Source: Kineococcus rhizosphaerae
Lineage (GTDB): Bacteria > Actinomycetota > Actinomycetes > Actinomycetales > Kineococcaceae
Direction: 5' to 3'
Length of the DNA: 64,000 nt
NCBI RefSeq assembly: GCF_003002055.1
Contig: NZ_PVZF01000006.1
Coordinates: forward strand, 62,001 to 126,000
The notes below the pieces were generated by a model, which was given only the letters and a program-made list of their open reading frames with translations, was not told where the DNA came from and ran no database searches. Positions 6,209 through 52,956 of this stretch are shown in pieces; the first letter of the stretch is position 1; each line of letters starts with the position of its first letter. The position numbers and the translations under genes were made by a program.

Positions 6209-6771
6209 CTTCCGCCACCGGTGACGATCCCCGCCGGGCGGACGCCCGGCGCAACCGCGAGCGGATCCTGGACGCGGCCCGCGAGCAGCTGCGCGGGCCC
6301 GGGGAGCTGAAGCTCAACGCCGTGGCCAAGGCCTGCGGCATCGGGCAGGGGACGCTGTACCGGCACTTCCCCACCCGGGAGGACCTGCTCGTCGAGGTCT
6401 ACCGCCACGACGTCGACGACCTCGTCGCCGCTGCGGCGGACCTGCTGTCGACCCGAGGCCCCGTCGAGGCGCTCGCGGCCTGGTTCGAGCGCGTCGCGGC
6501 CTACGCCCGGGTCAAGACCCACGTCTTCGCGGCCGTGGAGGCGGCGACGTGGCGCGACCTCGCCGCCCACAGCCTCGGCCCGATCGGCGAGGCGGTGGAG
6601 CGGCTGCTGGCCGCCGGCCGGGCCGACGGGAGCCTGCGCGCCGACGTCGAGGCCCGCGACGTCATCGTGCTGATCAGCTGGCTCTCGCGCCTGGACGACG
6701 CCGAGCTCGACGCACGGGGCCCGCGGTTGCTGGCGGTGCTGCTCGACGGGCTGCGGACGCACCGGGCCTGA
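6169..6771 (+). CDS. TetR/AcrR-family transcriptional regulator
   Basis: About 200 residues. The DNA-binding domain covers roughly residues 24-70: RRNRERILDAAREQL, then the helix-turn-helix around AVAKACGIGQGTLYRHFPTREDLL. The ligand domain that follows is of the SDR-linked type. The ATG at 6169 lies inside a palindrome. An in-frame GTG at 6202 inside the second palindrome would give a protein 11 residues shorter with the whole HTH kept. No good ribosome-binding site precedes either start. Probably an autoregulating repressor of the divergent SDR gene. Confidence 0.88.
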   Translation: MSGYVDDHSGHVSASATGDDPRRADARRNRERILDAAREQLRGPGELKLNAVAKACGIGQGTLYRHFPTREDLLVEVYRHDVDDLVAAAADLLSTRGPVEALAAWFERVAAYARVKTHVFAAVEAATWRDLAAHSLGPIGEAVERLLAAGRADGSLRADVEARDVIVLISWLSRLDDAELDARGPRLLAVLLDGLRTHRA

Positions 6772-6798
6772 CCGGTGCGCCCGGGTGCGCCCGGTCAG
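6768..6798. terminator. Symmetric hairpin containing both convergent stop codons
   Basis: CTGACCGG (6768-6775) and CCGGTCAG (6791-6798) form an 8-bp stem around a GC-rich loop. The left arm holds the TGA of the tetR gene and the right arm the TGA of the minus-strand kinase gene. It could terminate both transcripts; there is no U tract. Confidence 0.45.
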
Positions 6799-7724
6799 AC
6801 CACCGGTTCGGCCCCGGCCCGGCGCATGGCGTACAGCGCGCTGCCCAGCCCCGGGTCGTGCAGGGGTTCGCGCAGGTCGTAGGAGGTGCCCGCCAGCGCC
6901 GCCCGGAACTCCGCGAGCACCACGGGCGCCTCGAACAACCCGCCCGAGTACGACACCGGGACCACCTCCCCCGCGGTGTGGCCCAGCGCCCGCGCGGTGG
7001 CCTCGACGAGTTCGAGCAGTTCGGCGGCGGCCGCGCGCACGATGCCCAGGGCCCGCTCGTCCCCCGCCTCGGCGCACGCCGTGACGGTCCGGGCCAGCCC
7101 GGCGATCCGGGTGCGCTGGCCCTGCCAGCGGTCGACGACGACGCCGATCGCGTCGAGGTCCTCGGTGATGTCCAGTTCGGTGCGCACGGCGTCGTACAGG
7201 CCCGTGCGCGGTTCGCGGCCGTCGGCCATCCGGGAGAACGCCGCGAGCCCCTGGACGGCGACCCAGTAGGCCGAGCCCTCGTCGCCGAACAACTCGCTCC
7301 ACCCGCCCGCGCGGTGGGCGACGCCCGCGCGTTCGCCGTAGGCGATCGACCCCGTCCCGGCCACGACGTTGATCCCGTCGTGCCCGCCCAGGGAACCGGC
7401 CCAGCCGCTGACCATGTCGTTGCCGCACACGTATCGGTCGTGGCCCAGGACCCGGCCGGGCAGCGCGTCCAGGGCGGCGACGTCCGCGCTGGCCTCCCCG
7501 TACCCGGGGAAGGCGAAGAACGCGTGCGCGACGTCCCCGGGGTCGATCCCCGCGGTCACGTTCCCGACGCCCGTGCGCAGGACCTCCTCCACGGCCTCGA
7601 GCCCGGCGCCGCCGAAGTAGTAGCTGGTCGGCTGCCGGTCCTGGGCGACGATGCGCCCCTGCGCGTCCACGAGGACGAACGCGGTCTTCGTCCCGCCGCC
7701 GTCCATGCCCAGGTAGTAGCTCAC
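6795..7724 (-). CDS. BadF/BadG-type sugar kinase (N-acetylglucosamine kinase family)
   Basis: A 309-residue cytosolic kinase of the ASKHA fold. The N-terminal phosphate-binding loop is YYLGMDGGGTKTAFVLVD, with a second glycine-rich motif VVAGTGSIAYG in the middle. Relatives phosphorylate N-acetylglucosamine or similar amino sugars. Its start overlaps the SIS-domain gene by 4 nt (ATGA). It is the last gene of a six-gene amino-sugar-like catabolic operon, so it probably phosphorylates the sugar released by the GH4 enzyme or brought in by the transporter. The exact sugar is not determinable. Confidence 0.87.
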   Translation of the reverse strand: MSYYLGMDGGGTKTAFVLVDAQGRIVAQDRQPTSYYFGGAGLEAVEEVLRTGVGNVTAGIDPGDVAHAFFAFPGYGEASADVAALDALPGRVLGHDRYVCGNDMVSGWAGSLGGHDGINVVAGTGSIAYGERAGVAHRAGGWSELFGDEGSAYWVAVQGLAAFSRMADGREPRTGLYDAVRTELDITEDLDAIGVVVDRWQGQRTRIAGLARTVTACAEAGDERALGIVRAAAAELLELVEATARALGHTAGEVVPVSYSGGLFEAPVVLAEFRAALAGTSYDLREPLHDPGLGSALYAMRRAGAEPVV

Positions 7725-8833
7725 CGGACGGGCAGTTCGTGGATGCGGACGCCCTGCACGACGCGGTTGACCGTCCCGTCGGGGAACGGGTTGTCCGGGT
7801 CGCAGCCCTGCCGCACCGAGGCGCCCAGGGCCAGGAGCTGGGAGAACGTCGCCAGCGCCACGGCCCGCAGGCCGTCGGGCAGGCCGTCGAGGCCCGGCAC
7901 GGCGAAACCACCGTCCGCGCCCAGGTGCACGACGCGGCCGGGGTGGTCGGCGCGCAGCTCGGCGACGATGTCGGCGTCGTACTGCGCGGTGTAGGGGTCG
8001 GCCGAGGCGTGGACGACGACGAGGGTCCGGTCGTCGACGATCGACTTCGGCCCGTGCCGGAACCCCAGGGGGGTGTCGTGGAACGCCGCGACGCGGCCCG
8101 CGGTGAGCTCCAGCAGCTTCAGCGCGGACTCCTGCGCGAGCCCCTTCAGCGGTCCGCTGCCCAGGTGCACGACGCGGTGGGGCGCGGAGTCCAGGAGGGC
8201 CTCGACCTCACCGGCCCGGTCGATGAGCGAGGACGACGCGGCGGCGAGCGCGTCGACGGCGCCCAGGCCGGCGGGGTCGAACGCCAGCAGCGCCGCCAGG
8301 AGCATGGTGGAGAAGCTGGAGGTCATCGCGAAACCCCGGTCGTGCGTCTGCTCGGGCAGCAGCAGGACGAAGGAGCCCGCCGCACCCTGGTGCTCGCGGG
8401 CCAGCTGCCCCTGCTCGTTGCACGTGACGACGAGGTGGTGGGCCTGCGGGGCGAGGCGGTCGACCAGCCGGGTCGCGGCCAGGCTCTCGGGGCTGTTGCC
8501 CGAGCGGGCGAAGGAGACCAGCAGCACGGGCAGCGGCTCGGCCAGCGCCCCGCGCGGGTCGGCGACGAGGTCGGTCGTGGCGACGGCGTCCACCCGCCGG
8601 CCCAGGACCGGGCGCAACGCCTCGGCGGCGATGTCGCCGATGAACGCCGACGTCCCGGCGCCGGTGAAGACGATCCGCAGGTCCTCGCGGGCCAGGACGG
8701 GTTCGAGGAAGGCGGCGAGCTCGCCACCGCGCCGCACCAGCCCGTCGCGCAGCTCGCGCCAGGCGCCGGGTTGCTGACGGATCTCGGAGTGGGTGGCGCT
8801 GAGGGACACGTCACTGGTCACGGGGGTGGTCAC
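7721..8833 (-). CDS. SIS-domain sugar-phosphate isomerase/deaminase (AgaS-like)
   Basis: About 370 residues with two SIS domains: IVFTGAGTSAFIG and VSFARSGNSPES in the first, RVVHLGSGPLKG and FRHGPKSIV in the second. AgaS and GlmS-isomerase-like proteins isomerise or deaminate amino-sugar phosphates. I chose the GTG at 8833 because AGGAGA lies 7 nt upstream; an upstream GTG at 8869 would add 12 residues but has no good Shine-Dalgarno. The gene sits between the MalG-type permease and the kinase, consistent with transport, phosphorylation and isomerisation of an amino sugar. Confidence 0.85.
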   Translation of the reverse strand: MTTPVTSDVSLSATHSEIRQQPGAWRELRDGLVRRGGELAAFLEPVLAREDLRIVFTGAGTSAFIGDIAAEALRPVLGRRVDAVATTDLVADPRGALAEPLPVLLVSFARSGNSPESLAATRLVDRLAPQAHHLVVTCNEQGQLAREHQGAAGSFVLLLPEQTHDRGFAMTSSFSTMLLAALLAFDPAGLGAVDALAAASSSLIDRAGEVEALLDSAPHRVVHLGSGPLKGLAQESALKLLELTAGRVAAFHDTPLGFRHGPKSIVDDRTLVVVHASADPYTAQYDADIVAELRADHPGRVVHLGADGGFAVPGLDGLPDGLRAVALATFSQLLALGASVRQGCDPDNPFPDGTVNRVVQGVRIHELPVR

Positions 8834-8876
8834 GGGGTTCTCCTGCGGTCGGTGCTCGGTGGGGTTCACGGGGTGC

Positions 8877-9752
8877 TCAGCCCTTGAGGCCGGCGGAGGC
8901 CATCGTCGCGACGAACTGCTTCTGGGCGAGCAGGAAGAGGAGCATGAGGGGCAGGGTGGCGACGACGTTGCCGGCCATCAGCAGCGACCAGTCGGTGCGC
9001 CGGGTGCCCTGGAAGTTCGTCAGCCCCAGCTGGAGGGTGAAGTTCTGCTCGTCGTTGATCGCGACCAGCGGCCAGACGAGGTCGTTCCACGAGCCCAGCA
9101 GCGTGAAGATCGCCAGCGTCGCCATGGCGGGCCGGGCCAGCGGCAGCACGATCCGGAAGAAGACCTGCAACCGCGAGCAGCCGTCGATGCGGCCGGCCTC
9201 CTCCAGCTCGGCCGGCAGCGACAGGAAGAACTGGCGCATGAGGAAGATGCCGAAGGCCGAGGCCAGCCAGGGGACGATCGCGGCCCCGAGGTTGTTCACC
9301 AGGCCGAGCTTGGCGAACATCACGTACGTCGGGATCATCAGCAGCTGCGAGGGGATCATGATGGTCGCCAGGATCGCCAGGAACCCGAACGTCCGCCCCG
9401 GGAACCGCAGCCGCGCGAAGCCGTACCCGGCCAGCGAGCACAGCACGAGGTGGGACACGATCGACGTCGCGGACACGACGGCCGTGTTCAGCAGCCAGCG
9501 CAGGATCGAGGACTCGGCGAACAGCTTCTCGTAGCCGGACAGGGTCAGGTGCGAGGGCAGGAACGCCGGCGGGAACCGGTTGATGTCCGACGCCGGGGTC
9601 AGCGAGGTCAGGAACATCTCGACGAACGGCAGCATGAACAGCAGGGCGACGGGGACCAGCAGCAGGTGCCAGGGGCTGAATGGCAGCCGCCGGCGCGGGC
9701 GGCGGGTGAGGGCGGTGGTGGCGGGGGCGAGCCCCACGGTGGACGTGGTCAC
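8877..9752 (-). CDS. Sugar ABC transporter permease, MalG type
   Basis: 291 residues, six hydrophobic segments (first around WHLLLVPVALLFMLPFVEMFL), EAA loop LEEAGRIDGCSRLQVFFRIVLP. The GTG start at 9752 overlaps the stop of the other permease (GTGA, 9749-9752), showing translational coupling. The reading frame stays open far upstream through the neighbouring genes, but that part is only a shadow. It forms the importer channel with 9749-10678. Confidence 0.92.
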   Translation of the reverse strand: MTTSTVGLAPATTALTRRPRRRLPFSPWHLLLVPVALLFMLPFVEMFLTSLTPASDINRFPPAFLPSHLTLSGYEKLFAESSILRWLLNTAVVSATSIVSHLVLCSLAGYGFARLRFPGRTFGFLAILATIMIPSQLLMIPTYVMFAKLGLVNNLGAAIVPWLASAFGIFLMRQFFLSLPAELEEAGRIDGCSRLQVFFRIVLPLARPAMATLAIFTLLGSWNDLVWPLVAINDEQNFTLQLGLTNFQGTRRTDWSLLMAGNVVATLPLMLLFLLAQKQFVATMASAGLKG

Positions 9753-10678
9753 GCGGTCCTCCCGGCGCGGCGTTGGGCGAGGGTCACGACGACGGTCACC
9801 GCGAGGGTGACGAAGAACAGCGCGTAGGCGACGGCTGAACCGTACCCGAACTGCAGCTTCTGGAACGCCGTCGTCCAGATCTGGTAGACGATCGTCTGGG
9901 TGGCGTCCAGCGGCCCGCCGCGCGTCGTGGCGTACACGAGGTCGAACAGCTGCACGGCCTGCAGGGTCTGGTAGATCCCGACGAAGGTCGTCACGGGCCG
10001 CAGCTGCGGCCACACGACCCGCCAGAAGATCTGGGCCGACCCCGCCCCGTCGATGCGGGCCGCCTCGATGGTCTCGCCCGGGATGTCCTGCAGGGCGGCG
10101 AGGTAGATGACCGTGGTGAACGCGGCCTGGCCCCACAGCGACATGATCGTGATGACGACCATCGCCTGGTGGCTGTCCTCCAGCCACCCCTGCTGAGGCA
10201 GGTGCAGGACCCGCAGCACGTTGTTGACGAGCCCGAACTGCGGGCTGAACAGGTAGGTGGTGAGGATGCCGGTGGCCGCGGCGGAGGCGACGAACGGCAC
10301 GAACACGGCCGTCCGGTACAGGCCGATGAAACGGATCCGGCGGTTGAGCGCGGTGGCCAGCAGCAGCCCCAGCAGCAGGGACGCCGGGACGAACATGACG
10401 GTGTAGAGCAGGGTGTGCAGGACGGCGCCGCCCAGGGCCGCGTCGGTCAGCAGGTCCTGGTAGTTCTGGGTCCCCACCGCGGTCGGGGGGCTGAACCCGT
10501 CCCACGAGCGGAACGACAGGACCAGCGCCCAGATCCCGGGGAACAGGGTGAGGCCACCGACGACGACCAGGGCCGGGGCCACGAAGCCCCAGCCCGCGAG
10601 GGCCTCGCCCGTCAGCCGCCGGCGGGGCCGGCGGGTGGGGGCCGTCTGCGGCCGGGAACGCACTCCGAGGGTCGTCAC
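9749..10678 (-). CDS. Sugar ABC transporter permease, MalF type
   Basis: 309 residues with an N-terminal basic tail (RRPRRRL), six hydrophobic segments and the EAA loop IEAARIDGAGSAQIFWRVVWPQL. The start is 9 nt after the stop of the binding-protein gene. It pairs with the MalG-type permease it overlaps. No ATPase gene is present in the operon. Confidence 0.92.
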   Translation of the reverse strand: MTTLGVRSRPQTAPTRRPRRRLTGEALAGWGFVAPALVVVGGLTLFPGIWALVLSFRSWDGFSPPTAVGTQNYQDLLTDAALGGAVLHTLLYTVMFVPASLLLGLLLATALNRRIRFIGLYRTAVFVPFVASAAATGILTTYLFSPQFGLVNNVLRVLHLPQQGWLEDSHQAMVVITIMSLWGQAAFTTVIYLAALQDIPGETIEAARIDGAGSAQIFWRVVWPQLRPVTTFVGIYQTLQAVQLFDLVYATTRGGPLDATQTIVYQIWTTAFQKLQFGYGSAVAYALFFVTLAVTVVVTLAQRRAGRTA

Positions 10679-38426: not shown

Positions 38427-39071
38427 GGGTCCTCACTTCGCCGGGACGGCCGGCCGCTGCTTCGACCCGACGTCCCGCCCACCATAGCCCGCTCAGCCGG
38501 GCGCGGGCAGGGTGCTGCTCGGCGACCGCAGGTCCACGACGCCGGAACCGGGCAGGGAACCGCAGGGGGATCCGGGGAGAACCCGCGCCAGTGGTCACGA
38601 CGGTGCGCGACCTCGGGGTGCGGGCCGCGCGCGGCCCGTCGGTGGCCGGGTCGCCGTGCTGACCGCAGGCGCCCTCGTCGAACCGGGCGGCGCCGACGAC
38701 ACCGTCGTCGCCGAACCGCGCGAGTCCCCGCCCGGGCTCCCGGGCCGGCGCTGGGCAGTTCCCCGCAGGCGCCTCGGTGGTGCGGCGCAGGGCGTTGCTG
38801 CAGGCCGGGGTTCTGCGAGCGGCTGCGGCTGAGGGCGGGGGAGAACTCCCGGCCACCGGTCTCGCCGCCCGCGGGAGGGCGTCGTGCCCCCGCACTCCGA
38901 GGCCCGTTCCGTCGCGCTGGAGGAGTCCCAGCGCACGTCGAGGGCCGGGGACCACTCACGCTCACCGTTTCCGGTTGCCGAGCGTGAGGGCCGGTGTTGG
39001 AGTGGTGCACGTCGGGTGCAGCAGCGTTTCGCCCAGGCCGGTACCTCACGGACCCTGGAGGGGGAACGCGC
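38427..39071. other. 645-bp stretch without a recognisable gene
   Basis: Several ORFs are open on both strands, but none has a credible start, RBS or family match. Visible structure: a perfect 18-bp palindrome CGGGCCGCGCGCGGCCCG (38621-38638) and a hairpin CGACGAC/GTCGTCG with an ACC loop (38694-38710). The right end must hold the sigma-gene promoter; no GTTT-N15-GGGTA is visible there. Confidence 0.5.
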
Positions 39072-39818
39072 ATGCCCGACGTCCGCGAGCAGTTGATCCA
39101 CGACCACCTGGGCCTGGCCCGGGGGCTGGCCCTGCGCTACCGCCACCGCGGCATCCCCGACGAGGACCTCGAACAGGTCGCCCGGCTCGGGCTGGTCAAG
39201 GCCGCCGAGCGGTTCCGGCCCGAGGCCGGTCACGAGTTCGGCGCGTACGCGACGCCCACGATCACCGGTGAGCTGCGGCGCTGGTTCCGCGACCACGGCT
39301 GGTGCGTCCGGCCGCCGCGGCGCCTGCAGGAACTGCGGACGCGGATGATCCAGGAGACCACCACCGGGTTGAGCGAGCAGGAACTGGCCGCGCGCCTGGA
39401 CGCCACCGTCGCCGAACTGCGCGAGGCGCACCGGGCCACGCACGCCTACTCCGCGCTCTCCCTGGACGTCCCCCGCCACGACGTCGCCGGCGAGGACGAC
39501 ACCAGTGCCCACGTCGACGACCTGCTGTCGCTGCGGACGGCCGTGACCGGGCTCAGCGACCGTGAACGCCGCATCCTGCACCTGCGCTTCTACGACGAGG
39601 CGACGCAGTCCGAGATCGCCGCCGAGCTCGGCATCAGCCAGATGCAGGTGTCCCGCCTCCTCGCCGGCATCCTGGCGCGGTTGCGTGTCGAGCTCGGCGT
39701 TCACGTGCCCGTGCGGGACGTCACCAGCCCCGTCCGCCGCCGCAGCGCGCCCGACGGGGCCCCCGCGTGGTCGCGCACGCCGTCGAGCAGTTCCACCAGG
39801 ACGTCGCGCGCCGCGTGA
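39072..39818 (+). CDS. SigB/SigF/SigG-family RNA polymerase sigma factor
   Basis: 248 residues from the ATG at 39072 (GGAGGGGGAACGCGC upstream). Region 2: HDHLGLARGLALRYRHRGIPDEDLEQVARLGLVKAAERFRPEAGHEFGAYATPTITGELRRWFRDHGWCVRPPRRLQEL. Region 3 follows. Region 4: LSDRERRILHLRFYDEATQSEIAAELGISQMQVSRLLAGILARLR. Missing anti-sigma neighbour; STAS and HATPase genes lie elsewhere in the window. This type recognises GNTT-N15-GGGTA promoters, of which several are present here. The 3' 118 bp (a Ser/Arg/Pro-rich tail) overlap the convergent epimerase gene. Confidence 0.9.
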   Translation: MPDVREQLIHDHLGLARGLALRYRHRGIPDEDLEQVARLGLVKAAERFRPEAGHEFGAYATPTITGELRRWFRDHGWCVRPPRRLQELRTRMIQETTTGLSEQELAARLDATVAELREAHRATHAYSALSLDVPRHDVAGEDDTSAHVDDLLSLRTAVTGLSDRERRILHLRFYDEATQSEIAAELGISQMQVSRLLAGILARLRVELGVHVPVRDVTSPVRRRSAPDGAPAWSRTPSSSSTRTSRAA

Positions 39819-41857: not shown

Positions 41858-43066
41858 GTGAGAGCTCTGACGTGGCAAGGCAAGCGGTCGGTCGCCGTCC
41901 AGGACGTGCCCGACCCGGTGATCGTCGAACCCACCGACGCGGTCGTGCGGATCACCTCGACCGCGATCTGCGGGTCGGACCTGCACCTGTACGAGGTGCT
42001 GGCCCCCTACCTGGCCAAGGGTGACGTCCTGGGGCACGAACCCATGGGGATCGTCGAGGAGGTCGGGCCGGCGGTCACGAACCTCGTCCCCGGTGACCGG
42101 GTCGTCATCCCGTTCACGATCTCCTGCGGGCACTGCTGGATGTGCAGCCGTGGCCTGACGACGCAGTGCGAGACCACCCAGGTCCGGGAGAAGGGCAGCG
42201 GCGCCGCGCTGTACGGTTACACCTCCCTGTACGGGTCGGTGCCCGGCGGGCAGGCCGAACGGCTGCGCGTCCCGCACGCGGACTTCAACCCGATCAAGGT
42301 CGGCCGTGAGGGCGACGGCGGGGCGCCGGACGAGCGGTACCTGTTCCTGTCCGACATCCTGCCGACCGCGTGGCAGGGCGTGAAGTACGCCGACGTGCCC
42401 GAGGGCGGGACCCTCGCGGTCCTGGGCCTGGGACCGGTGGGGCAGTTCGCCGCCCGCATCGGCCGCCAGCTCGGCTACCACGTCGTCGGCGTCGACCCCG
42501 TGCCCGAACGTCGGGCGATGGCCGAGCGCAACGGCGTTCCCGCGATCGACCTCACCGACTCCTCGGGGGCCGACGTCCCCGGCCAGCTGCGCGAGCGCAC
42601 CGACGGCCGTGGCCCGGACGCCGTACTGGACGCCGTCGGCATGGAGGCCCACGGCGGCGCCGAGGGCGTCGTCGCCAAGGCCGCGCAGACCGCCGTGGGC
42701 CTGCTGCCGGACGCCCTGGCGCAGAAGGTCATGGAGACCGGCGGGATCGACCGGTTGTGGGCGGTGCGGACCGCCGTCGACGCCGTCCGCCGCGGCGGGA
42801 CGATCTCGCTGTCCGGGGTGTACGGCGGTGAGGCCGACCCGATGCCGATGATGACGATGTTCGACAAGCAGATCCAGCTGCGCATGGGCCAGTGCAACGT
42901 CAAGACCTGGATCGACGACCTCATGCCGTTCGTGGAGGACCCGGCGGACCCGCTGGGCATCGACGACCTCACCACGCACCGGGTGCCGCTGGAGGACGCT
43001 CCCGACGCGTACGAGATGTTCCAGGCCAAGCGCGACGGCTGCATCAAGGTCGTCCTGAAACCCTGA
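41858..43066 (+). CDS. Zinc-dependent alcohol dehydrogenase (MDR family)
   Basis: 402 residues of the glutathione-independent formaldehyde dehydrogenase-like branch. Catalytic zinc ligands in AICGSDLHLYE and GHEPMGIVEEVG; structural zinc Cys in SCGHCWMCSRGLTTQC. The NAD-binding motif is VLGLGPVGQFAARIGRQLGYHVVGVDPVPERR. The insert VGREGDGGAPDERYLFLSDILPTAWQG is typical of this branch. Likely oxidises aldehydes or alcohols. GTG start at 41858 after the SigB-like promoter. The FUSC gene follows 8 bp later. Confidence 0.92.
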   Translation: MRALTWQGKRSVAVQDVPDPVIVEPTDAVVRITSTAICGSDLHLYEVLAPYLAKGDVLGHEPMGIVEEVGPAVTNLVPGDRVVIPFTISCGHCWMCSRGLTTQCETTQVREKGSGAALYGYTSLYGSVPGGQAERLRVPHADFNPIKVGREGDGGAPDERYLFLSDILPTAWQGVKYADVPEGGTLAVLGLGPVGQFAARIGRQLGYHVVGVDPVPERRAMAERNGVPAIDLTDSSGADVPGQLRERTDGRGPDAVLDAVGMEAHGGAEGVVAKAAQTAVGLLPDALAQKVMETGGIDRLWAVRTAVDAVRRGGTISLSGVYGGEADPMPMMTMFDKQIQLRMGQCNVKTWIDDLMPFVEDPADPLGIDDLTTHRVPLEDAPDAYEMFQAKRDGCIKVVLKP

Positions 43067-44373: not shown

Positions 44374-45036
44374 TCACGCGCTGAGGTCGGCCGCGACCCC
44401 CTCGGGGGCACGGCCCACCAGCCGGTCGCTCGTGGTCACCGGGAACCGGGAGGACGCCAGCACCCGGGCGCCGGGCAGCGCGCGGACCCGGTCGGCGAGC
44501 GCCCGGTCCTCGTGGGCGGGCAGTGCGGGGAAACCCCCGGCGGCCAGGTACGTCGAGGCGCGGACCCCGAGGTTCGCGCCGTGGACGTGCACGTGCCCCG
44601 TGGCCCACTCCCCCGCCGCGTACCGCTCCCGCCACGCCCGGTGCGCCCCGGCGGGCCCGGCCAGCCGCACCGTGCCCAGCAGCAGGTCGACGTCGGCGGC
44701 GGCGATCTGCGCGTGCCAGCCCAGCCAGCCGGCGGGCACGAGGGAGTCGGCGTCCGTGCTGGCGATCCAGTGCTCGTCCGCGGGTTCCACCGGCCTGAGG
44801 GCCCGGGCGGCCCGGACCCCCGCGGCGCGCGCGGCCCCGACCTGGCCGGCCCCGCTGAGCAGCACGCGCACCCCCGCGGCGCGGGCGATCCGCTCCGTCC
44901 GGTCCTGGCAGCGGTCCGCGACGACGACGACGTCGACCGGGACGGGGCAGTGCCGGGCCGCGGCGGCCAGGGCGTCGAGGCAGGCGCCGATGGTCGTCTC
45001 CTCGTCGCGGGCCGGGACGACGACGGAGATCCTCAC
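44374..45036 (-). CDS. Glycosyltransferase family 2
   Basis: 220 residues. GT-A start VRISVVVPARDEETTIGACLDAL, then VVVVADRCQDRTERIARAAGV, the metal-binding DAD in EHWIASTDADSLVPAGWLG, GTVRLAG, and a late catalytic ED motif in HEDRALADRVRALPG. Transfers a sugar from a nucleotide donor. No membrane segment is evident. GTG start at 45036 overlaps the stop of the deacetylase/methyltransferase gene (GTGA). Third gene of the operon. Target unknown. Confidence 0.9.
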   Translation of the reverse strand: MRISVVVPARDEETTIGACLDALAAAARHCPVPVDVVVVADRCQDRTERIARAAGVRVLLSGAGQVGAARAAGVRAARALRPVEPADEHWIASTDADSLVPAGWLGWHAQIAAADVDLLLGTVRLAGPAGAHRAWRERYAAGEWATGHVHVHGANLGVRASTYLAAGGFPALPAHEDRALADRVRALPGARVLASSRFPVTTSDRLVGRAPEGVAADLSA

Positions 45037-46430
45037 ACCAGTCCCCCGGCCCGGGCGACCGAGACGACGGGGGCCGGGACGAGGACGTCGAGCAGGAAGT
45101 CCTCCTCCTCGTGACGGGCGAGCAGGTCCAGGCCCGCCGCGCCGCGCAGGGTCCGGTGCACCTCGTCCCCGGTGAGGGGGTAGTCCTCGACGAGGTGGCG
45201 CCAGTGGCAGGCCACCAGGACCCCGTCGGGGCTGAGGCAGGCCCGCAGCCGCTCGACGAGGTCGCGCAGGTCGTCGGGGTCGCAGTAGTAGGCGACCTCG
45301 GCCAGGACGACGAGGTCGAACTCCCCGTCGGGGAACTCCTGCGGGACCCGCGCCACCTGCGTCCGCACGTTCTGCGGGACCCTGGCCCGGGCGCGCTCGA
45401 GCGCGGACGGCGAGATGTCGACCGCGAGCAGAGATTCGCACCGTTGCGCGAGTTCCACTGAGAAGACACCTGCGCTGCAACCGATCTCCAGGCCGTTGCG
45501 GAACCGCTCACGCGGCAGCGAGGCCAGGGTCAGGGCACGTTTGCGCCGTTCGTACCAGCGGTCCTCGAAACCCCAGGGGTCGTCGCCGTGCTCGGCGTAG
45601 AAACCCTCGAAGAACTCCGCGCCGAGGCTGCGGGGGCGGCCGGCCCCCTGACCCGCGAGGAAGAACTCGGCGTCTCGGCCGAAGTGCTCGAGGACGCCCG
45701 GGGCCAGCAGCACCTCGTCGCCGGGTGCGGCCGACAGGGGTTCGGTCTGGGACACGTGCGCCGCCATCGCCTCCTGCTTGCGGCGGTGCGCGTCGGGGTC
45801 GAGGTCGAGGCTCACCCCGCGCGACCACGGGATCCGGACGTCACCGGGGTGCGACCAGTGCCACACCCACACCGGGTAGTGCACGCACCGCGCGCCCCGC
45901 TCGGCAGCCACCTGCGCGGCGACGGCCCCCGCGACGTCGTGGTCGGGGTGGCCGTCACCGGTCCACGGCGCGACGAGCAGGGTGCCGCCGCGCACGAGCC
46001 GGGTCAGCCGGGCGGCGAGGACGGCACGGTCCCCGCCCACCCCGCCGTCGGGGACGCGCAGCCGGTGCAGGTGCGCGCCGGGGGCCAGCGTCGAGACGGC
46101 GTGGCGCACCTCCTCGCCCCGGCGCTCGGCCAGCTCGCGGGGGGTCGTCGTCGGGGAGGCGGGGTGCGACCCCTCCCCGTCGGTGGCCACGACCACGTCG
46201 ACGGGAAGCCCGCGGGCGGCGGCCGTGGCGATCAGCCCCCCGGCCCCCAGGGTCTCGTCGTCGGGGTGGGCGGCGACGACGAGGACGTGCTCGACCCCGG
46301 CCCAGTCGAGGGCGGGGACATCGCGCAGCCCGGGCCAGCGGGCCCAGTCCTGCTCGGGGGTCCCGGGGCTGTCGTGGGTGAACTCGTCGTGGGAGGAGCG
46401 GACGGCGGGGTCGTCGTTCACCAGGGCCAC
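45033..46430 (-). CDS. Fused PIG-L deacetylase and NodS-like SAM methyltransferase
   Basis: 465 residues. N-terminal PIG-L domain: zinc motif AHPDDE (residues 54-59), then GDGHPDHDVAGAV (His ligand), which removes N-acetyl groups from GlcNAc-type sugars. C-terminal SAM methyltransferase from about residue 315: LEIGCSAGVFSVELA, LLAVDISPSALERARARV, GEFDLVVLAEVAYYCDPDDLRDLVERL, VLVACHWRHLVEDYPLTGDEVH. The last motifs are those of NodS, which N-methylates a de-acetylated amino sugar. Deacetylation and methylation of the same nitrogen would therefore sit on one chain. Overlaps the acyl-CoA-dehydrogenase-like gene at 46418-46430. Confidence 0.9.
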   Translation of the reverse strand: MALVNDDPAVRSSHDEFTHDSPGTPEQDWARWPGLRDVPALDWAGVEHVLVVAAHPDDETLGAGGLIATAAARGLPVDVVVATDGEGSHPASPTTTPRELAERRGEEVRHAVSTLAPGAHLHRLRVPDGGVGGDRAVLAARLTRLVRGGTLLVAPWTGDGHPDHDVAGAVAAQVAAERGARCVHYPVWVWHWSHPGDVRIPWSRGVSLDLDPDAHRRKQEAMAAHVSQTEPLSAAPGDEVLLAPGVLEHFGRDAEFFLAGQGAGRPRSLGAEFFEGFYAEHGDDPWGFEDRWYERRKRALTLASLPRERFRNGLEIGCSAGVFSVELAQRCESLLAVDISPSALERARARVPQNVRTQVARVPQEFPDGEFDLVVLAEVAYYCDPDDLRDLVERLRACLSPDGVLVACHWRHLVEDYPLTGDEVHRTLRGAAGLDLLARHEEEDFLLDVLVPAPVVSVARAGGLV

Positions 46431-47398
46431 GAGGTGTCCTCCCGCCCGGCGGCGCCCACCGCGCGCCCGAGCGCGGCGACGTCGTGGTCGGCGTGGTGCT
46501 GGCGCAGGTAGACGGTGAGGTCGGCGACGCGGGCGGCGTGCGCCGCGTCGAACGCGAGGGGTGCCGGGCCGAGCGCGTGACCGACCTCGGTCAGCACGTC
46601 CTCGGCGGCCCCGGCCACGATCGAGCGGGTGCGCAGGGCCAGGAGCTCACCCGCGGTGCCGGTGGCCCGTCCGGCGTCCACGTCGTCGGCGGCGGCGTCG
46701 AGGGCGAGCCGGGCCGAGCGCAGCCGCAGGTCGACGGTCCCGCGCGAGCGTTCGGTGAGCGGGTCGTCCTTCGCGCTGCGCAGCAACGGCCCCGCCACCC
46801 CGGCGGCGCCGCCGAACCAGCACGCGGCGACCCCGATCCCGCCGTGGGCGAACCCCGGGCGACGCAGGTACCAGCCCGCCTCCCCGACGGGTTCGGCCGT
46901 CACGGCCTCGAAGCGCACCGGCCCGCTGGGGACGTCGACGAGCCCCCGGCTGTGCCAGGCGCCCTCCTCCACGTGGACGCCGGGACCGCGCAGGTCGACG
47001 GCGAACAAACGCCGTCCTGCCGGGGTGTGGGCGGTGACGAGGGCGTGGGTGAGCACGCCGGCCAGGGAGCACCAGGGTTTGCGGCCGGTCAGCCGGCCGC
47101 CGGAGGACTCCAGGACCGCGTCGGGGGCCTCGGCGGCGAAGACGCCCCACGTGGAGCCCTCGGGGACGGGAAGGCCGGCCTCGGCGAGGACGGCGACGGC
47201 GTCGAGGTGGGCCTCGACGACCCGGGCGACCGTCAGGTCCTGCTCGGCGAGGGTGGCCAGGACCTGCCAGCGGCGGCGGGTCCGGCCCGACGCGGGGAGC
47301 GGGACCTCGCGCGTGAGCCGTCGCGCGACGTCCAGCGCGGCCTCGACGGCGGGCGGGACGGTCGCTGGCGGGGACGGGGTGGACAACACGGACGACAC
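46418..47398 (-). CDS. Acyl-CoA dehydrogenase-like flavoprotein
   Basis: 326 residues, shorter than the usual 380. Mid-section matches the family flavin/substrate region (STWGVFAAEAPDAVLESSGGRLTGRKPWCSLAGVLTHALVTAHTPAGRRLFAVDL), then GFAHGGIGVAACWFGGAAGVAGPLLR and helical C-terminus (ALRTRSIVAGAAEDVLTEVGHALGPAPLAFDAAHAARVADLTVYLRQHHADHDVAALGRAV). The N-terminal helical domain is trimmed. It may desaturate an acyl or sugar-linked substrate. First gene of the three-gene operon; start ATG at 47398. Confidence 0.85.
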   Translation of the reverse strand: MSSVLSTPSPPATVPPAVEAALDVARRLTREVPLPASGRTRRRWQVLATLAEQDLTVARVVEAHLDAVAVLAEAGLPVPEGSTWGVFAAEAPDAVLESSGGRLTGRKPWCSLAGVLTHALVTAHTPAGRRLFAVDLRGPGVHVEEGAWHSRGLVDVPSGPVRFEAVTAEPVGEAGWYLRRPGFAHGGIGVAACWFGGAAGVAGPLLRSAKDDPLTERSRGTVDLRLRSARLALDAAADDVDAGRATGTAGELLALRTRSIVAGAAEDVLTEVGHALGPAPLAFDAAHAARVADLTVYLRQHHADHDVAALGRAVGAAGREDTSWPW

Positions 47399-47494: not shown

Positions 47495-47905
47495 TCAGAC
47501 CACGAGCCGGCTCCAGACCGTCTTGCCGCCCGGGCGGGTCCGCACGCCCCACTCGTCGCTGAGGACCTCCACGAGGTTCGTGGTGTGGGCGTCGTCGGGC
47601 CCCACGGTGCGGAAGTGGGGCCCGTTGGGGTCGCGGTCGCTGACGGCGATCGTGACGCCGTCGTCGCCCTCGCACTCGATCCGCAGCACGACGGGCGCGG
47701 TGCCGTGGGTGACGGCCTCGGTGACGAGCTCGCTGACGAGCAGCTCGGCGTGCGGGCGCAGGAGGGAGGCGTGCTCGACGCACCAGTGGTCGTCGAGGAA
47801 GCGCCGCGCGTGGCGGGCCGCGGACCGGTCCACCACGACGGTGGACTCAGCTGCTGGGAACCACTCGCACATGGACGTCGATCGTCGCCGAGGATCGGCG
47901 TCCAC
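47495..47905 (-). CDS. RsbW/HATPase-like anti-sigma protein with altered N-box
   Basis: 136 residues. GHKL fold: HARRFLDDHWCVEHASLLRPHAELLVSELVTEAVTHG (N-box), VTIAVSDRDPNGP (G1), VLSDEWGVRTRPGGKTVWSRL (G2). The N-box Asn that chelates Mg2+-ATP is replaced (canonical ELVTNAVRHG; here ELVTEAVTHG), so ATP or Mg binding is doubtful. GTG start at 47905, with an in-frame ATG 33 nt later; neither has a strong RBS. Follows the STAS gene by 5 bp; together they look like an anti-sigma/antagonist pair. Confidence 0.82.
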   Translation of the reverse strand: MDADPRRRSTSMCEWFPAAESTVVVDRSAARHARRFLDDHWCVEHASLLRPHAELLVSELVTEAVTHGTAPVVLRIECEGDDGVTIAVSDRDPNGPHFRTVGPDDAHTTNLVEVLSDEWGVRTRPGGKTVWSRLVV

Positions 47906-47910
47906 GCTCG

Positions 47911-48351
47911 TCAGAACCCCGCGCGCCCGTCCGGGTCGGTCACGTCCCCGGTGACGTCCTCGATGACGTCCCCGGTGACGTCGAGGACGTCGGCGAGCGC
48001 CGTGACGTCCAGGAGGAACGCGACGGTCCGGCTGGGGGCGACGCTGACGCGCGCGGGGCGGGCGAGGACGGCGAGGCGGGCCAGGAACGCGGCCCCGGCG
48101 GAATCCATGAAGCTGACGCCGGTGGCCTCGACGTGCACGGCGTCCCCGCCGGCGCGCGGGCGGCTGCGCAGCAGGGTGCCGACGCGGGCGGCGGCCTCGT
48201 CGAGGTCGAGGCGCAGCTCGTCGTCGATCTCGCCGGAGAGGTGGACGAGGACGCGGTCGCCGTCGCGCTCGACGGTGACGAGCCCGTCGGGACGGTCCTC
48301 GCGCAGGTCGGGGGATCGTGGGGACGAAGGCTCCGGAGACGGCGTCGACAC
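47911..48351 (-). CDS. STAS-domain anti-sigma-factor antagonist
   Basis: 146 residues from the GTG at 48351, with AGGAGG 7 nt upstream. STAS core: VLVHLSGEIDDELRLDLDEAAARVGTLLRSRPRAGGDAVHVEATGVSFMDSAGAAFLARLAVLARPARVSVA. The Asp-Ser (MDSAG) phosphosite is intact, unlike two other STAS proteins here. The C-terminal tail repeats DVTGDVIEDVTGDVT from duplicated GACGTC-type units. Operon with the HATPase-like gene 5 bp downstream. Probably antagonises a sigma factor kinase. Confidence 0.87.
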   Translation of the reverse strand: MSTPSPEPSSPRSPDLREDRPDGLVTVERDGDRVLVHLSGEIDDELRLDLDEAAARVGTLLRSRPRAGGDAVHVEATGVSFMDSAGAAFLARLAVLARPARVSVAPSRTVAFLLDVTALADVLDVTGDVIEDVTGDVTDPDGRAGF

Positions 48352-48529
48352 GCTGGTCCCTCCTCTGTGTGGTCCGCGTGGTCGTGCAGGCCCCGCCCTG
48401 TGCTCGAGCCGGTGCCCCGACCGTACCCCCACGGGAGGGTCCACCCCAGCCCCCCCGGGGTGGCCGTTCGCCCGACCGGCGGGCCCGTTCCGGTGCGACC
48501 GGCCGCCCCCACCCGGCACGGGGGCGGGC

Positions 48530-49496: not shown

Positions 49497-49591
49497 TTCC
49501 GCCCTCCGGGACCGGCTCGCGACCCCCGCCGGTGCTGCTCCGGTCGGGTGGACCACCTCTAGAAGCCCTCCGGGGAGCCCGACGTACGAAC

Positions 49592-51373
49592 GTGGCTCGC
49601 GCGTCCTCCGCCCCCCTCTTCGCGACGACCCGCGTCATGGGTCTGACGGCGGGCGCCTTCTGGACCGCCGGCGGGACCGCGGCGTTCGCCGTGATCGGCT
49701 GGGCCCCCTTCCCCCACCCCCGGGACCGGACCGTCCTGCTCGTGCTGGCGACGGCGGCCGTCCTCGGCGGCCTCCTGCTGGCGCGCTGGGGCCGGCACCT
49801 GCCGCGCGTGGCGTTCCACGGCGCCGCGGCCGCCGGGACGCTGCTCATCACCCTCGCCGTCCCGCTGTGCCCCACGACCGCCACCGCGCTGGCCCTCACC
49901 ACCGTCTACTCGTTCGTCGCCATCGACGTGATGTTCTTCTTCGGCTGGGCCTCCGGGATCGCGCACCTGCTGAGCCTGTTCGCCGCCGCGGCGTGGGCGC
50001 TGCACGGCCGCGCCGGGGTCACCCCCGGCGTCGGCGCGACCCTCGCCGTCGTGTGCGTCGTGATCACGGTCGTCGTCGGCGCCCTCGTGCGCCGGGCCTC
50101 CGACGCCCAGCACGACAGCCTCACGGGCCTGCGCAACCGGCGCGGCTTCGACGCCGCCCTGGACGCCGAGCTGCTCCGGACCCGCCACGGAGCCCCGCTG
50201 GCCGCCGCCCTCCTGGACGTCGACCACTTCAAGACCGTCAACGACGGCCAGGGCCACGCCGCCGGCGACCGGCTGCTGCAGCAGTTGTCGGCGCAGCTGC
50301 AGGAGGGCCTGCCCGCCGGCGCCGTGCTCGCCCGGTACGGCGGTGACGAGTTCGCCCTCCTGCTGCCCGGGTGCAGCGGCGCCGCCGCCCTCGACCTCGT
50401 CGACCGGCTGCGCGCCACCCTCGCGGGGGCGGGCTGCTCGGCCGGGGTCGCCGGGCACCTGCCCGGCGAGAGCGGCGCCGACCTCGTGCGCCGCGCCGAC
50501 ACCGCGCTGTACGCCGCCAAGCTCGCCGGCCGGGGACGCTCGCGCCTCGACGACCTGGACAGCACCGAACTGGCCCACGACCTCGCGCAGGCGCTCGCCG
50601 CCGGCGACGTGCGGGCCTGGTTCCAGCCCGTCGTCTCCCCCGCCACCGGCACCCTCGTCGGGGTCGAGGCCCTGGCCCGGTGGCTGCACCCCGAGCGCGG
50701 CCTCGTGCGGCCCGACGAGTTCATCACGGTCGCCGAGACCACCGGCCTGATCCTCGACCTGGGTGCGGCCGTGCTGGCCGACGCCTGCCGCGGCGCCGTC
50801 GAGCTGGCCCGCGTCCACGGCCCCGGCCTGCTGCTCACCGTCAACGTCTCCGGGCGCGAGCTCGTCGCCGAGGGGTACGGCGACCGCACCCTGGCCGCGG
50901 TCCGCGCCAGCGGCTGGCCGCTGGAGCAGCTCGTCGTGGAGGTCACCGAGAGCCTGCTCGACGCGTCCTCGGGCCCGGCCCTGCAGGCCCTGCACCGCCT
51001 GCGCTCGGCGGGGGTGCGCGTGGCCATCGACGACTTCGGCACCGGGTACTCCGCCTTCAGCCGGCTCGACACCCTGCCCGCCGACTACCTCAAGCTCGAC
51101 CACGGGTTCACCGCGCAGATCACCACCTCCGAACGCCGGGCCGGGCTGCTGCAGGCGCTGCTGTCCCTGTCCGACGCCCTGGGGCTGCAGGTCGTCGCCG
51201 AGGGGGTCGAGCACGAGGAGCAGGCCGCGCTGCTGGCGAGCCTGGGGTGCCCGCTGGCCCAGGGGTACCTGTTCTCCCGCCCGCTCCCCCTGGACGAGCT
51301 GCTCGCCGCCGCGCCCGCCCGCCAAGTCGCCCGGACCACCGTCGGGACCGTCGTCGAGGCAGTCACCGCGTGA
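49592..51373 (+). CDS. Membrane GGDEF-EAL bifunctional c-di-GMP enzyme
   Basis: 593 residues from the GTG at 49592; the ATG at 49637 is an alternative. About five hydrophobic segments in the first 160 residues (AAFAVIGWAPF, VLLVLATAAVLGGLLLARWG, GTLLITLAVPL, VAIDVMFFFGWASGIAHLLSLFAAAAWA, LAVVCVVITVVVGALV). GGDEF domain: HDSLTGLRNRRGFDAALD, DVDHFKTVNDGQGHAAGDRLL, ARYGGDEFALLLPG; no RxxD inhibitory site. The EAL domain: VGVEALARWLHPERGLVRPDEFITVAE, VAIDDFGTGYSAFSRLDTLPADYLKLD, VVAEGVEHEEQ. Both domains look catalytically intact. Its stop overlaps the next GGDEF gene. Confidence 0.92.
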   Translation: MARASSAPLFATTRVMGLTAGAFWTAGGTAAFAVIGWAPFPHPRDRTVLLVLATAAVLGGLLLARWGRHLPRVAFHGAAAAGTLLITLAVPLCPTTATALALTTVYSFVAIDVMFFFGWASGIAHLLSLFAAAAWALHGRAGVTPGVGATLAVVCVVITVVVGALVRRASDAQHDSLTGLRNRRGFDAALDAELLRTRHGAPLAAALLDVDHFKTVNDGQGHAAGDRLLQQLSAQLQEGLPAGAVLARYGGDEFALLLPGCSGAAALDLVDRLRATLAGAGCSAGVAGHLPGESGADLVRRADTALYAAKLAGRGRSRLDDLDSTELAHDLAQALAAGDVRAWFQPVVSPATGTLVGVEALARWLHPERGLVRPDEFITVAETTGLILDLGAAVLADACRGAVELARVHGPGLLLTVNVSGRELVAEGYGDRTLAAVRASGWPLEQLVVEVTESLLDASSGPALQALHRLRSAGVRVAIDDFGTGYSAFSRLDTLPADYLKLDHGFTAQITTSERRAGLLQALLSLSDALGLQVVAEGVEHEEQAALLASLGCPLAQGYLFSRPLPLDELLAAAPARQVARTTVGTVVEAVTA

Positions 51374-52956
51374 ACCTCACCGTGCCCCACGTCCTGACCG
51401 TGGTCTTCGTCGCCGGGGCCCTGCTGAACGCCGCCACCGCCGTCCTGGCCTGGCGGCACCGCACCCGCACGCCCGCCGCGCGGGCCCTGTCCGCCGCCGC
51501 CGCCAGCCTGGCGGTGTGGGCCGCGGTCTGCGCGCCGCAGAACCTGCCGCTGCCGCAGGGGCTGCACGACGGCCTGACCTACGCCTCGTTCGCGACGATC
51601 CTGGGTGCCGTCGTGAGCCTGCACCTGCTGGCCCGGTTCGTCGTCGACCCGCACCTGCGGCTGTCGCGCGCGCACGTCGCGCACCTGGTCGCGGTCCCGG
51701 CGGCGGTCCTGCTCGCCGTGGCCACCGACCCGCTGCACCACCTGGTGTTCACGCGCATCGTCCCGCTCGGGCACGCCCCCTGGTACGACGACCGGTTCGG
51801 GCCGCTGTTCTGGGTCCACACCGCGTGGTGCTACCTGCTGCTGACCGACGCCGCCGTCCGCCTGGCCCGCGCGTGGCTCACGGGTTCGGCCGTCCTGCGC
51901 CCGCAGGCCGGGGGGCTGCTGCTGGCCAGCACGTTCCCGCTGGCCGGCAACGTCGCCGTCCTGTGCGGGGCGCACGTGCTGTCCGGGCAGGACCTCACCC
52001 CGCTGTTCTTCACCCTCACCGGGCTGCTCGACGCGTGGGTCGTGCTGCGCCTGGGCCTGCTGCGGACCGTCCCCGTCGCCCGCGCCGCCGTCCTGGAGAC
52101 CATCGACGACCACGTCGTCGTCATCGACGCCGAGGGCACCGTCGTCGACGTGAACGCCTCCGGCCGCGCCTTCCTCGCGGCCCGCCGTCCCGACCTGCCG
52201 GCCGACCCCGTCGGCGTCGCCGCCTCGCAGTTCCTCACCCACCGCGCCCTGGCCGACCTGACCCGCGGGCCGCTCGACTACGTCCTGGAGTACACCCCCG
52301 GCTACCACGTGAGCGTGAAGGTCACCGCGCTGACCGACCGGCGGGGCCGGGCCCTGGGGCGCGTCCTGGTGGCCCGCGACATCACCGACCTCGTCGAGAC
52401 CCGCCGTCGGCTCGAGGAGCTGCAGGCCCGGCTGTCCGAGGAGGCCGTGCGCGACCCGCTGACCGGGCTGCACAACCGCCGCCACCTCGACCCCGCCGCC
52501 GCGCAGCTGCTGCGCCTGGCCTCGCCCGACGGACCCGTCGGGGTGCTCGTCGTCGACGTCGACCACTTCAAGTCCGTCAACGACCGGTACGGCCACGCCG
52601 TCGGGGACGAGGTCCTCGTCGCCGTCGCCCACGCCCTGCGGGCCGCCGCGCGCGAGGGCGACCTGGTGGCCCGCACCGGCGGGGAGGAGTTCGTCCTCGT
52701 CCTGCCCGGCGCCCGCCCCGGCACCCTGGCCCGTCGGGCCGAGGACGTCCGCGCCGCCTGCGCCGCCGTCCGGGTGCGAACCCCGGCGGACACCGTGCGC
52801 CGCACCGTGTCCGTCGGCACCGCGTCCGTGACCGACCCCGGCACCGGCCTGGCCGACGTCCTGGCCCGCGCCGACGCGGCCCTGTACGAGGCGAAGGAGA
52901 GCGGGCGCGACCGCGTGGTGCACTCCCGGGACGCGCAGCCGGCCGATCGGGGTTAG
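51370..52956 (+). CDS. Membrane PAS-GGDEF diguanylate cyclase
   Basis: 528 residues from GTG 51370 (GTGA overlap). Seven or so hydrophobic segments of the 7TM histidine-kinase-sensor type (VLTVVFVAGALLNAATAVLAW, ATILGAVVSLHLLARFVV, VAHLVAVPAAVLLAVATDPLH, FGPLFWVHTAWCYLLLTDAAVRLARAWL). PAS domain around TIDDHVVVIDAEGTVVDVNASGRAFLA. GGDEF: RDPLTGLHNRRHLDP, VVDVDHFKSVNDRYGHAVGDEVL, ARTGGEEFVLVLPGARPGTLARRAEDVRAACAAVRVRT. The inhibitory RxxD is present as REGD five residues before GGEEF. Makes c-di-GMP; the upstream bifunctional enzyme may remove it. Confidence 0.92.
   Translation: MNLTVPHVLTVVFVAGALLNAATAVLAWRHRTRTPAARALSAAAASLAVWAAVCAPQNLPLPQGLHDGLTYASFATILGAVVSLHLLARFVVDPHLRLSRAHVAHLVAVPAAVLLAVATDPLHHLVFTRIVPLGHAPWYDDRFGPLFWVHTAWCYLLLTDAAVRLARAWLTGSAVLRPQAGGLLLASTFPLAGNVAVLCGAHVLSGQDLTPLFFTLTGLLDAWVVLRLGLLRTVPVARAAVLETIDDHVVVIDAEGTVVDVNASGRAFLAARRPDLPADPVGVAASQFLTHRALADLTRGPLDYVLEYTPGYHVSVKVTALTDRRGRALGRVLVARDITDLVETRRRLEELQARLSEEAVRDPLTGLHNRRHLDPAAAQLLRLASPDGPVGVLVVDVDHFKSVNDRYGHAVGDEVLVAVAHALRAAAREGDLVARTGGEEFVLVLPGARPGTLARRAEDVRAACAAVRVRTPADTVRRTVSVGTASVTDPGTGLADVLARADAALYEAKESGRDRVVHSRDAQPADRG

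Follow-up and report, generated by a model that had tools for sequence, protein, structure and literature searches.

A conserved operon of a PIG-L deacetylase, a NodS-like methyltransferase, a GT2 glycosyltransferase and an acyl-CoA dehydrogenase-fold flavoprotein: a candidate pathway for an N-methylated amino-sugar product

In the Nod-factor pathway, the NodB, NodC and NodS proteins bring together an N-deacetylase, a glycosyltransferase and an S-adenosylmethionine (SAM)-dependent N-methyltransferase; NodS methylates a sugar amine. A similar set of activities is encoded in the DNA analyzed here, a stretch of 64,000 nucleotides from Kineococcus rhizosphaerae (contig NZ_PVZF01000006.1, positions 62,001 to 126,000), hereafter called the window. 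Three overlapping minus-strand genes, read from 47398 to 44374, encode a flavoprotein of the acyl-CoA dehydrogenase (ACAD) fold (46418..47398, 326 amino acids), a fusion of PIG-L deacetylase and NodS-like methyltransferase (45033..46430, 465 amino acids) and a GT2 glycosyltransferase (44374..45036, 220 amino acids), all with GTG starts. The first two genes share 13 bases (46418..46430), the last two share 4 (45033..45036). Coordinates and gene content, as given in an original prediction made from the sequence alone, were reproduced by open reading frames and domain matches. That prediction had also seen in the three genes a compact operon for an N-methylated, perhaps acyl-modified, amino sugar, of undescribed function. 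Its core idea holds; the dehydrogenase and acyl part is not supported, the flavoprotein being probably an oxygenase or oxidase. The enzymes are of known kinds, and their combination was not found described in the open-licence literature.

The reading preferred here, tentatively and at slightly less than even confidence, is a pathway, associated with stress, whose product would be an amino-sugar glycoside that is N-methylated and probably oxygenated. The GT2 enzyme would transfer an N-acetylamino sugar, likely N-acetylglucosamine, to an acceptor that is either a small molecule or a glycan. Removal of the N-acetyl group at a zinc site would fall to the PIG-L domain, and methylation of the freed amine with SAM to the NodS-like domain, which in the window is part of the same chain. 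The flavoprotein would oxidise the product or a precursor as an oxygenase or oxidase, not as an acyl-CoA dehydrogenase. Synthesis would take place in stationary phase or during drying or osmotic stress, together with that of trehalose and catalase, and the glycoside would be a protectant. This reading draws on sequences and predicted models, which give the identities of the domains, the intact signatures of deacetylase and methyltransferase, the missing dehydrogenase glutamate, the gene order, the fusions and the neighbourhoods.

The methyltransferase domain of the fusion protein (residues 283-409, 45204..45584, minus strand) scores 59.0 bits against the Pfam NodS family PF05401, where the cut-off is 24, and carries a DPW...E...K/R signature, together with E315, E378 and Y381. 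In the structure predicted for the fusion (mean predicted local distance difference test, pLDDT, 91.6), the PDB entry nearest to this half is NodS itself (3ofk, Z 24.5 over 182 residues, 2.0 A), followed by 4isc, a putative methyltransferase of P. syringae (49% identity, Z 21.4); the first other methyltransferases appear at about Z 20. D284, P285, W286, E294 and E315 are present in all 29 module methyltransferases of a mixed set and in all of 4 NodS sequences, and the full set in none of the 8 next-closest outgroup methyltransferases, both reference sets being small; E378 and Y381 are found in 28 of the 29 and in the 4 NodS. The signature is not absolute, since 31 of the 34 fused members keep D284 and P285 and 33 keep E315, the other checked residues being present in all 34. 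Score and NodS-type residues thus place the domain in the NodS superfamily; its score against the NCBIfam NodS equivalog, NF041650, is 81.4 bits for a cut-off of 300, and it is therefore called NodS-like, not NodS. In the methyltransferase tree, module, NodS and trifunctional sequences are grouped at 93/97, below the level marked by a star; the tree is weakly resolved, with 6 of 40 inner branches starred and the bootstrap not settled, and a single clade of all module methyltransferases neither appears in it nor is rejected (approximately unbiased test, p-AU 0.399). As predicted, the domain falls within the NodS group, as judged by nearest structure and shared residues.

The same type of methyltransferase is also found between a GT2 domain and a NodB-family polysaccharide deacetylase, on one chain, in Gloeothece (L120) and Mesorhizobium (L121). 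It thus accompanies two unrelated N-deacetylase folds, which is the strongest argument that it may act on a freed sugar amine. In the window the deacetylase half is of the PIG-L family, scoring 82.3 bits against PF02585 (cut-off 28.2). Its core (residues 50-174, 45909..46283, minus strand) includes the zinc-site motifs HPDDE (55-59) and HxDH (161-164), and H55-E59, D159, H161, D163 and H164 are identical in all 34 fused members. The PDB structures nearest to the predicted model of this half are the putative deacetylase BC1534 (2ixd, Z 21.8) and diacetylchitobiose deacetylase (21.4), tied with LnmX and BshB at Z 21-22.

The glycosyltransferase belongs to GT2 by its Glycos_transf_2 domain (PF00535, 49.1 bits, cut-off 23.3) and contains the HxHxHGAN stretch of its family. 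D41, D45, D95 and D97 are invariant in the 31 sequences aligned, out of 81. The best NCBIfam model is TIGR04283, at 51.7 bits for a cut-off of 182; among the NCBIfam matches listed, none of the three proteins of the window exceeds a model's own cut-off.

Conservation of the arrangement was evaluated by scanning genome contigs with the glycosyltransferase alignment alone and keeping the best 80 of at least 285 confirmed places; units were called in these loci (numbered L, as are others below) with profiles from the window and nine plasmid loci. All four units, flavoprotein (ACAD), PIG-L, methyltransferase (MT) and glycosyltransferase (GT), lie on one strand, within 2.8 to 3.5 kb, in 65 of the 80. 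Three of the units were not selected for, since the scan used the glycosyltransferase alone, and the layout is for this reason not due to chance. The order is ACAD>PIG-L>MT>GT in 59 of the 65, GT>ACAD>PIG-L>MT in 5 and PIG-L>MT>GT>ACAD in 1. These loci come from Actinomycetota, Pseudomonadota and Acidobacteriota, with hosts such as Microbacterium, Nocardioides, Arthrobacter, Streptomyces, Pseudomonas, Psychrobacter and, for the Acidobacteriota, Edaphobacter; plasmid records extend the module to Deinococcota and Cyanobacteriota, with the glycosyltransferase on the opposite strand. PIG-L and methyltransferase share one open frame in 35 of the 65, in one of which (L067) the frame also includes the flavoprotein; in L140 glycosyltransferase and flavoprotein are in one frame. 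Fifteen loci were viewed singly, from Kitasatospora, Pandoraea, Acinetobacter (two), Deinococcus (two), Nostoc, Bradyrhizobium, Sulfitobacter, Comamonas, Komagataeibacter, Novosphingobium (two), Methylobacterium and Roseomonas: flavoprotein, PIG-L and methyltransferase follow each other in this order on one strand in all 15, and the glycosyltransferase is on the same strand in 9. Gene order is thus kept across relatives, and deacetylase, NodS-type methyltransferase and GT2 enzyme belong together, as the original prediction had it.

The distribution of the module is patchy. The fusion protein has a match at E <= 1e-25 in 18 of 198 Actinomycetota genomes, its own included, with up to 8 candidates scored per genome, and a match over both halves in 7 of 10 sampled congeners. 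In a viral collection, the methyltransferase alignment found no relatives; the glycosyltransferase alignment found seven loci, six with glycosyltransferase-like stretches by profile and none with the other three units.

Some single loci show features of their own. On the Acinetobacter soli plasmid L024, transposase genes lie upstream of the module, and the flavoprotein match (7076-7944) is in two pieces, in different frames, PIG-L, methyltransferase and glycosyltransferase being open. In Kitasatospora (L022) a one-frame glycosyltransferase match follows the methyltransferase at 8463-9167, where the incomplete table of PLSDB lists no gene. In two Pseudomonas loci, L106 and L110, the module is followed immediately by another PIG-L match, at about 9890-10590.

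The flavoprotein is the unit for which the original prediction has to be corrected. The ACAD middle domain of the window protein scores 28.1 bits, less than the 33.3 that Pfam requires; 64 of 69 aligned members, that of the window included, match this family at E <= 0.001. Structure prediction (pLDDT 93.5) also gives an ACAD fold: the 50 matches listed have Z 28-30 over about 300 residues. These values are reached alike with acyl-CoA dehydrogenases and DszC-type monooxygenases, so that the fold comparison cannot separate the two. For the motifs, the window protein was aligned with four proteins of the same fold from its own genome, two of them DszC/SfnB-like and one bearing the YEGT motif. At the position of the catalytic glutamate of acyl-CoA dehydrogenases, the window protein has Gln300 (codon 46499..46501, minus strand), aligned with the Glu of YEGT in the one reference and with the second His of HTLH in the DszC/SfnB-like two; the HTLH of the latter is RQ-x-H in the module flavoprotein. 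Glutamine is found here in 69 of 69 aligned members, and likewise in all 9 sequences of another set, drawn from four phyla. By eye, the Glu that isovaleryl-CoA dehydrogenase uses instead is absent. In a profile search of PDB sequences (33 matches), the best is TdsC, at 6.7e-12; DszC, MsuC, DnmZ and a nitrososynthase are also among them, as are many dehydrogenases, led by one at 1.1e-10. The commonest NCBIfam models are SfnB (39 of 69 members) and DszC (18), all as weak matches: the window protein scores 22 bits against SfnB, for a cut-off of 430.9.

Acyl-CoA dehydrogenase identity is accordingly doubtful: the protein has the fold, but not the catalytic glutamate. Because of the invariant glutamine, and of flavin monooxygenases among the nearest relatives, the dehydrogenase activity and acyl-modified product of the original prediction are unsupported. 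Judging from these sequences, acyl-CoA dehydrogenation is unlikely, oxygenase or oxidase chemistry is more likely, and the label "dehydrogenase" is probably a misnomer; the protein may belong with the group D flavin monooxygenases (DszC/SfnB/nitrososynthase type). The flavoprotein of Deinococcus radiophilus (L025, 5794-6918) features a 375-residue N-terminal extension, glycosidase-like by eye, with sub-threshold glycosidase matches (GH53, E 0.008; beta-glycosidase, E 0.15).

A possible link with stress comes from the neighbourhood of some of the loci. The Psychrobacter locus (L056) reads otsB-otsA-ACAD-PIG-L-MT-GT, and that of Comamonas endophytica (L029) otsA-ACAD-PIG-L-MT-GT-otsB, where otsA and the flavoprotein gene overlap by 4 bases; in Comamonas avium (L097) catalase, otsB and otsA precede the module. 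In five Pseudomonas loci (L068, L103, L105, L106, L110) the module is preceded by treY, then glgX, and in L024 otsA and otsB are close to it, on the other strand. The module thus joins genes of two trehalose routes. Overall, OtsA/OtsB or TreY are found beside it in 7 of the 80 loci, in addition to OtsA/OtsB at L029; in the stretches retrieved, 7 loci have a KatE-type catalase, 6 have Ku/LigD and 7 have a Zn alcohol dehydrogenase. Any of the searched markers is present in 31 of the 80, a descriptive count without random-locus control, inflated by shared ancestry, and no test of enrichment. The marker set was chosen from genes already seen near the module, related loci repeat, and general enzymes are included: short-chain dehydrogenases/reductases, Zn alcohol dehydrogenases and cardiolipin synthase, which have a role in stress. 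Names come from record annotation or from reading. TreY, GlgX, LigD and ClsB were model-checked and exceed their cut-offs, treY and glgX being checked in L106; catalase HPII scores 917 and OtsA 552, slightly less than the required 1102 and 565, and OtsA/OtsB were assigned by Pfam in L029 and L056. The name TreZ for the gene before treY in Pseudomonas proved wrong, the L106 copy exceeding the NCBIfam malQ cut-off. In Psychrobacter L056 the module is followed, at 6505-7152, by an acidic protein of 215 amino acids with Asp-rich repeats, lacking Pfam matches and hydrophilin-like by eye.

Published expression data for Acinetobacter baumannii point in the same direction. According to a table in PMC5660220, ACICU_02432-02435 form one operon, encoding a glycosyltransferase, a SAM-dependent methyltransferase, an LmbE protein and a putative acyl-CoA dehydrogenase-related protein, and all four genes are down 31- to 62-fold in two colistin-dependent mutants; trehalose-6-phosphate synthase (otsA), the phosphatase (otsB) and a hypothetical-catalase operon are down to other degrees, as are the flanking ACICU_02431 and ACICU_02436. 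The A. baumannii locus L163 has a matching gene order, with a DUF2171 gene on one side and a BOF protein gene on the other, which, from their position, would be ACICU_02436 and ACICU_02431; the PLSDB plasmid-labelled A. baumannii records of 3.7-4.1 Mb from which it comes look chromosome-sized. In PMC13232832, dtpC and katE are described as an operon, either gene sufficing for desiccation tolerance; ACICU_01425-01426 would correspond to dtpC-katE. The passages covered from the A. baumannii expression and desiccation literature, these two papers included, assign the module no function, and those on desiccation do not name it; no other description of it was found in the open-licence literature, where a lead on chitotriomycin also brought up no paper with that word.

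Several observations weigh against the preferred reading. The fall in A. baumannii was seen in colistin-dependent mutants, not in a drying experiment. None of the searched markers is present in 49 of the 80 loci, and even the most recurrent neighbour family is shared by at most 9; clustering of neighbours used the longest open frames, many of which are spurious in high-GC DNA. In alphaproteobacterial copies, a strict match to the EcfG promoter was found in 1 of 6 upstream regions. The glycosyltransferase is on the opposite strand in 5 of the 15 singly viewed loci (both Deinococcus, Nostoc, Bradyrhizobium, Komagataeibacter) and was not found in the Roseomonas stretch. Six of the 80 loci have flavoprotein, methyltransferase and glycosyltransferase without a PIG-L over 90 bits nearby; a PIG-L-family gene is present somewhere in all six genomes, in L089 as a weak one within the locus. 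Two loci hold glycosyltransferase and flavoprotein only, and seven the glycosyltransferase only: for L054 and L084 the genome carries the flavoprotein next to PIG-L at another site, for L074, L094 and L108 no module-type flavoprotein was found in the genome at E <= 1e-20, and L069 and L096 are at contig ends. Finally, the PIG-L fold performs other chemistry too, one PDB neighbour of this half being the hydratase GalB.

Other products may be considered. The module could serve envelope or exopolysaccharide tailoring, decorating a surface glycan with N-methylated glucosamine, with no free small molecule; this appears unlikely, albeit worth keeping in mind. In Novosphingobium P6W the run of the module includes three further glycosyltransferase genes, the trifunctional GT2-MT-NodB proteins resemble polysaccharide enzymes, and across the glycosyltransferase family NCBIfam matches include EpsD (15 of 31) and MftF (14 of 31), that to EpsD being far below cut-off in the window protein. 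Yet the usual module has one short glycosyltransferase, the trehalose operons point to cytosolic sugars, and inspection by eye of the 45 most frequent clusters of neighbours, not all of them annotated, brought up neither a polysaccharide polymerase nor a flippase. Another alternative is thiol or detoxification chemistry, in which PIG-L would have a thiol conjugate as substrate, as MshB, Mca and BshB do, and the flavoprotein would work on sulfur in the manner of SfnB or DszC. The prevalence of the latter two models among flavoprotein matches fits this explanation, as do matches of the BshB1 and BshB2 models to 29 and 21 of the 34 fused members, which in the window protein fall far short of the cut-off. 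It is nevertheless improbable: no Cys-ligase gene was noticed by eye in the same 45 clusters, the module occurs in Acinetobacter and Pseudomonas, which use glutathione, and the substrate of NodS is a sugar amine.

True acyl-CoA or acyl-carrier chemistry, yielding a glycolipid, would account for the fold, for Z values as high with acyl-CoA dehydrogenases as with monooxygenases, for the several dehydrogenases among the PDB sequence matches and for an acyl-CoA thioesterase about 4 kb away in the plasmid locus L030. Against the glutamine of all aligned members, and with no acyltransferase or carrier protein standing out by eye in the 45 clusters, it is very improbable. Even less credence is given to a Nod-factor-like chito-oligosaccharide signal: the pairing of N-deacetylase and NodS-type methyltransferase is the same, but many hosts are non-symbionts, the glycosyltransferase is short and far below the cut-off of its best model, and no NodA, NodB (PF01522) or NodC model is among the Pfam and NCBIfam matches listed for the three proteins (for the fusion, 25 of 38 NCBIfam matches). 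The stress-protectant glycoside remains the preferred product. A more specific form of it is decidedly doubtful: the glycoside, possibly trehalose-based, would have its amine N-methylated and then N-oxygenated by the flavoprotein, giving a redox-active or charged drying protectant. The end product would be a hydroxylamine, a nitrone or a betaine-like compound, an undescribed class of bacterial stress metabolite that, with equal doubt, would span at least five phyla and be partly plasmid-borne.

In the window itself, a sigma-70-family factor with regions 2, 3 and 4 (38994..39818, plus strand), which we take to be of the SigB/SigF type, and a Zn-dependent alcohol dehydrogenase (41858..43066, plus strand), 42% identical to one near the module in L091, lie on one side of the operon. 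On the other side, weak matches, below cut-off, indicate a HATPase_c_2-like protein (47495..47905) and a STAS-like protein (47911..48519), both on the minus strand, presumably of anti-sigma and anti-sigma antagonist type, respectively. Two adjacent plus-strand frames at 49559-52956 look by eye like GGDEF/EAL and GGDEF signalling proteins.

If the preferred reading is true, Nod-factor-like sugar chemistry, deacetylation followed by N-methylation, would be used far outside symbiosis, in a widespread compact operon. The module, whose expression in A. baumannii goes with that of trehalose and catalase genes, would offer a testable pathway to its product, and the annotation of its flavoproteins as acyl-CoA dehydrogenases is suggested to be wrong. 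The linkage to stress and trehalose genes in part of the loci, together with the published co-expression, is a lead beyond the original prediction.

Among known systems, MshB, BshB and diacetylchitobiose deacetylase share with the module the PIG-L fold and the conserved zinc-site motifs; they have other partners, and the MshB and BshB models are far below cut-off in the window protein. The flavin monooxygenases TdsC, DszC, MsuC and SfnB and the amino-sugar nitrososynthases (DnmZ, 4zxv; 3mxl) resemble the flavoprotein in having the ACAD fold without conservation of the dehydrogenase Glu, whereas the module protein is shorter and has RQ-x-H in place of the HTLH of the two references in its own genome. 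The entries 3m9v and 4kcf are presumably KijD3. With the desiccation and general-stress genes of A. baumannii (dtpA, dtpB, dtpC-katE, otsAB), the module has in common that it falls together with otsAB and the hypothetical-catalase operon in PMC5660220; unlike them, it is not named in the desiccation passages covered. The trifunctional proteins of L120 and L121 combine glycosyltransferase, SAM-dependent methyltransferase and polysaccharide deacetylase, three domain kinds as in the module, on one chain, with the same methyltransferase signature, but their deacetylase is of the NodB type, their glycosyltransferase is long and no flavoprotein is on the chain. Compared with NodB-NodC-NodS, finally, the module has the PIG-L fold instead of NodB, a short GT2 enzyme instead of NodC and an additional flavoprotein; its methyltransferases, structurally nearest to NodS, feature His409 (27 of 29) and Trp410 (28 of 29) where all 4 NodS have Ser-Ala.

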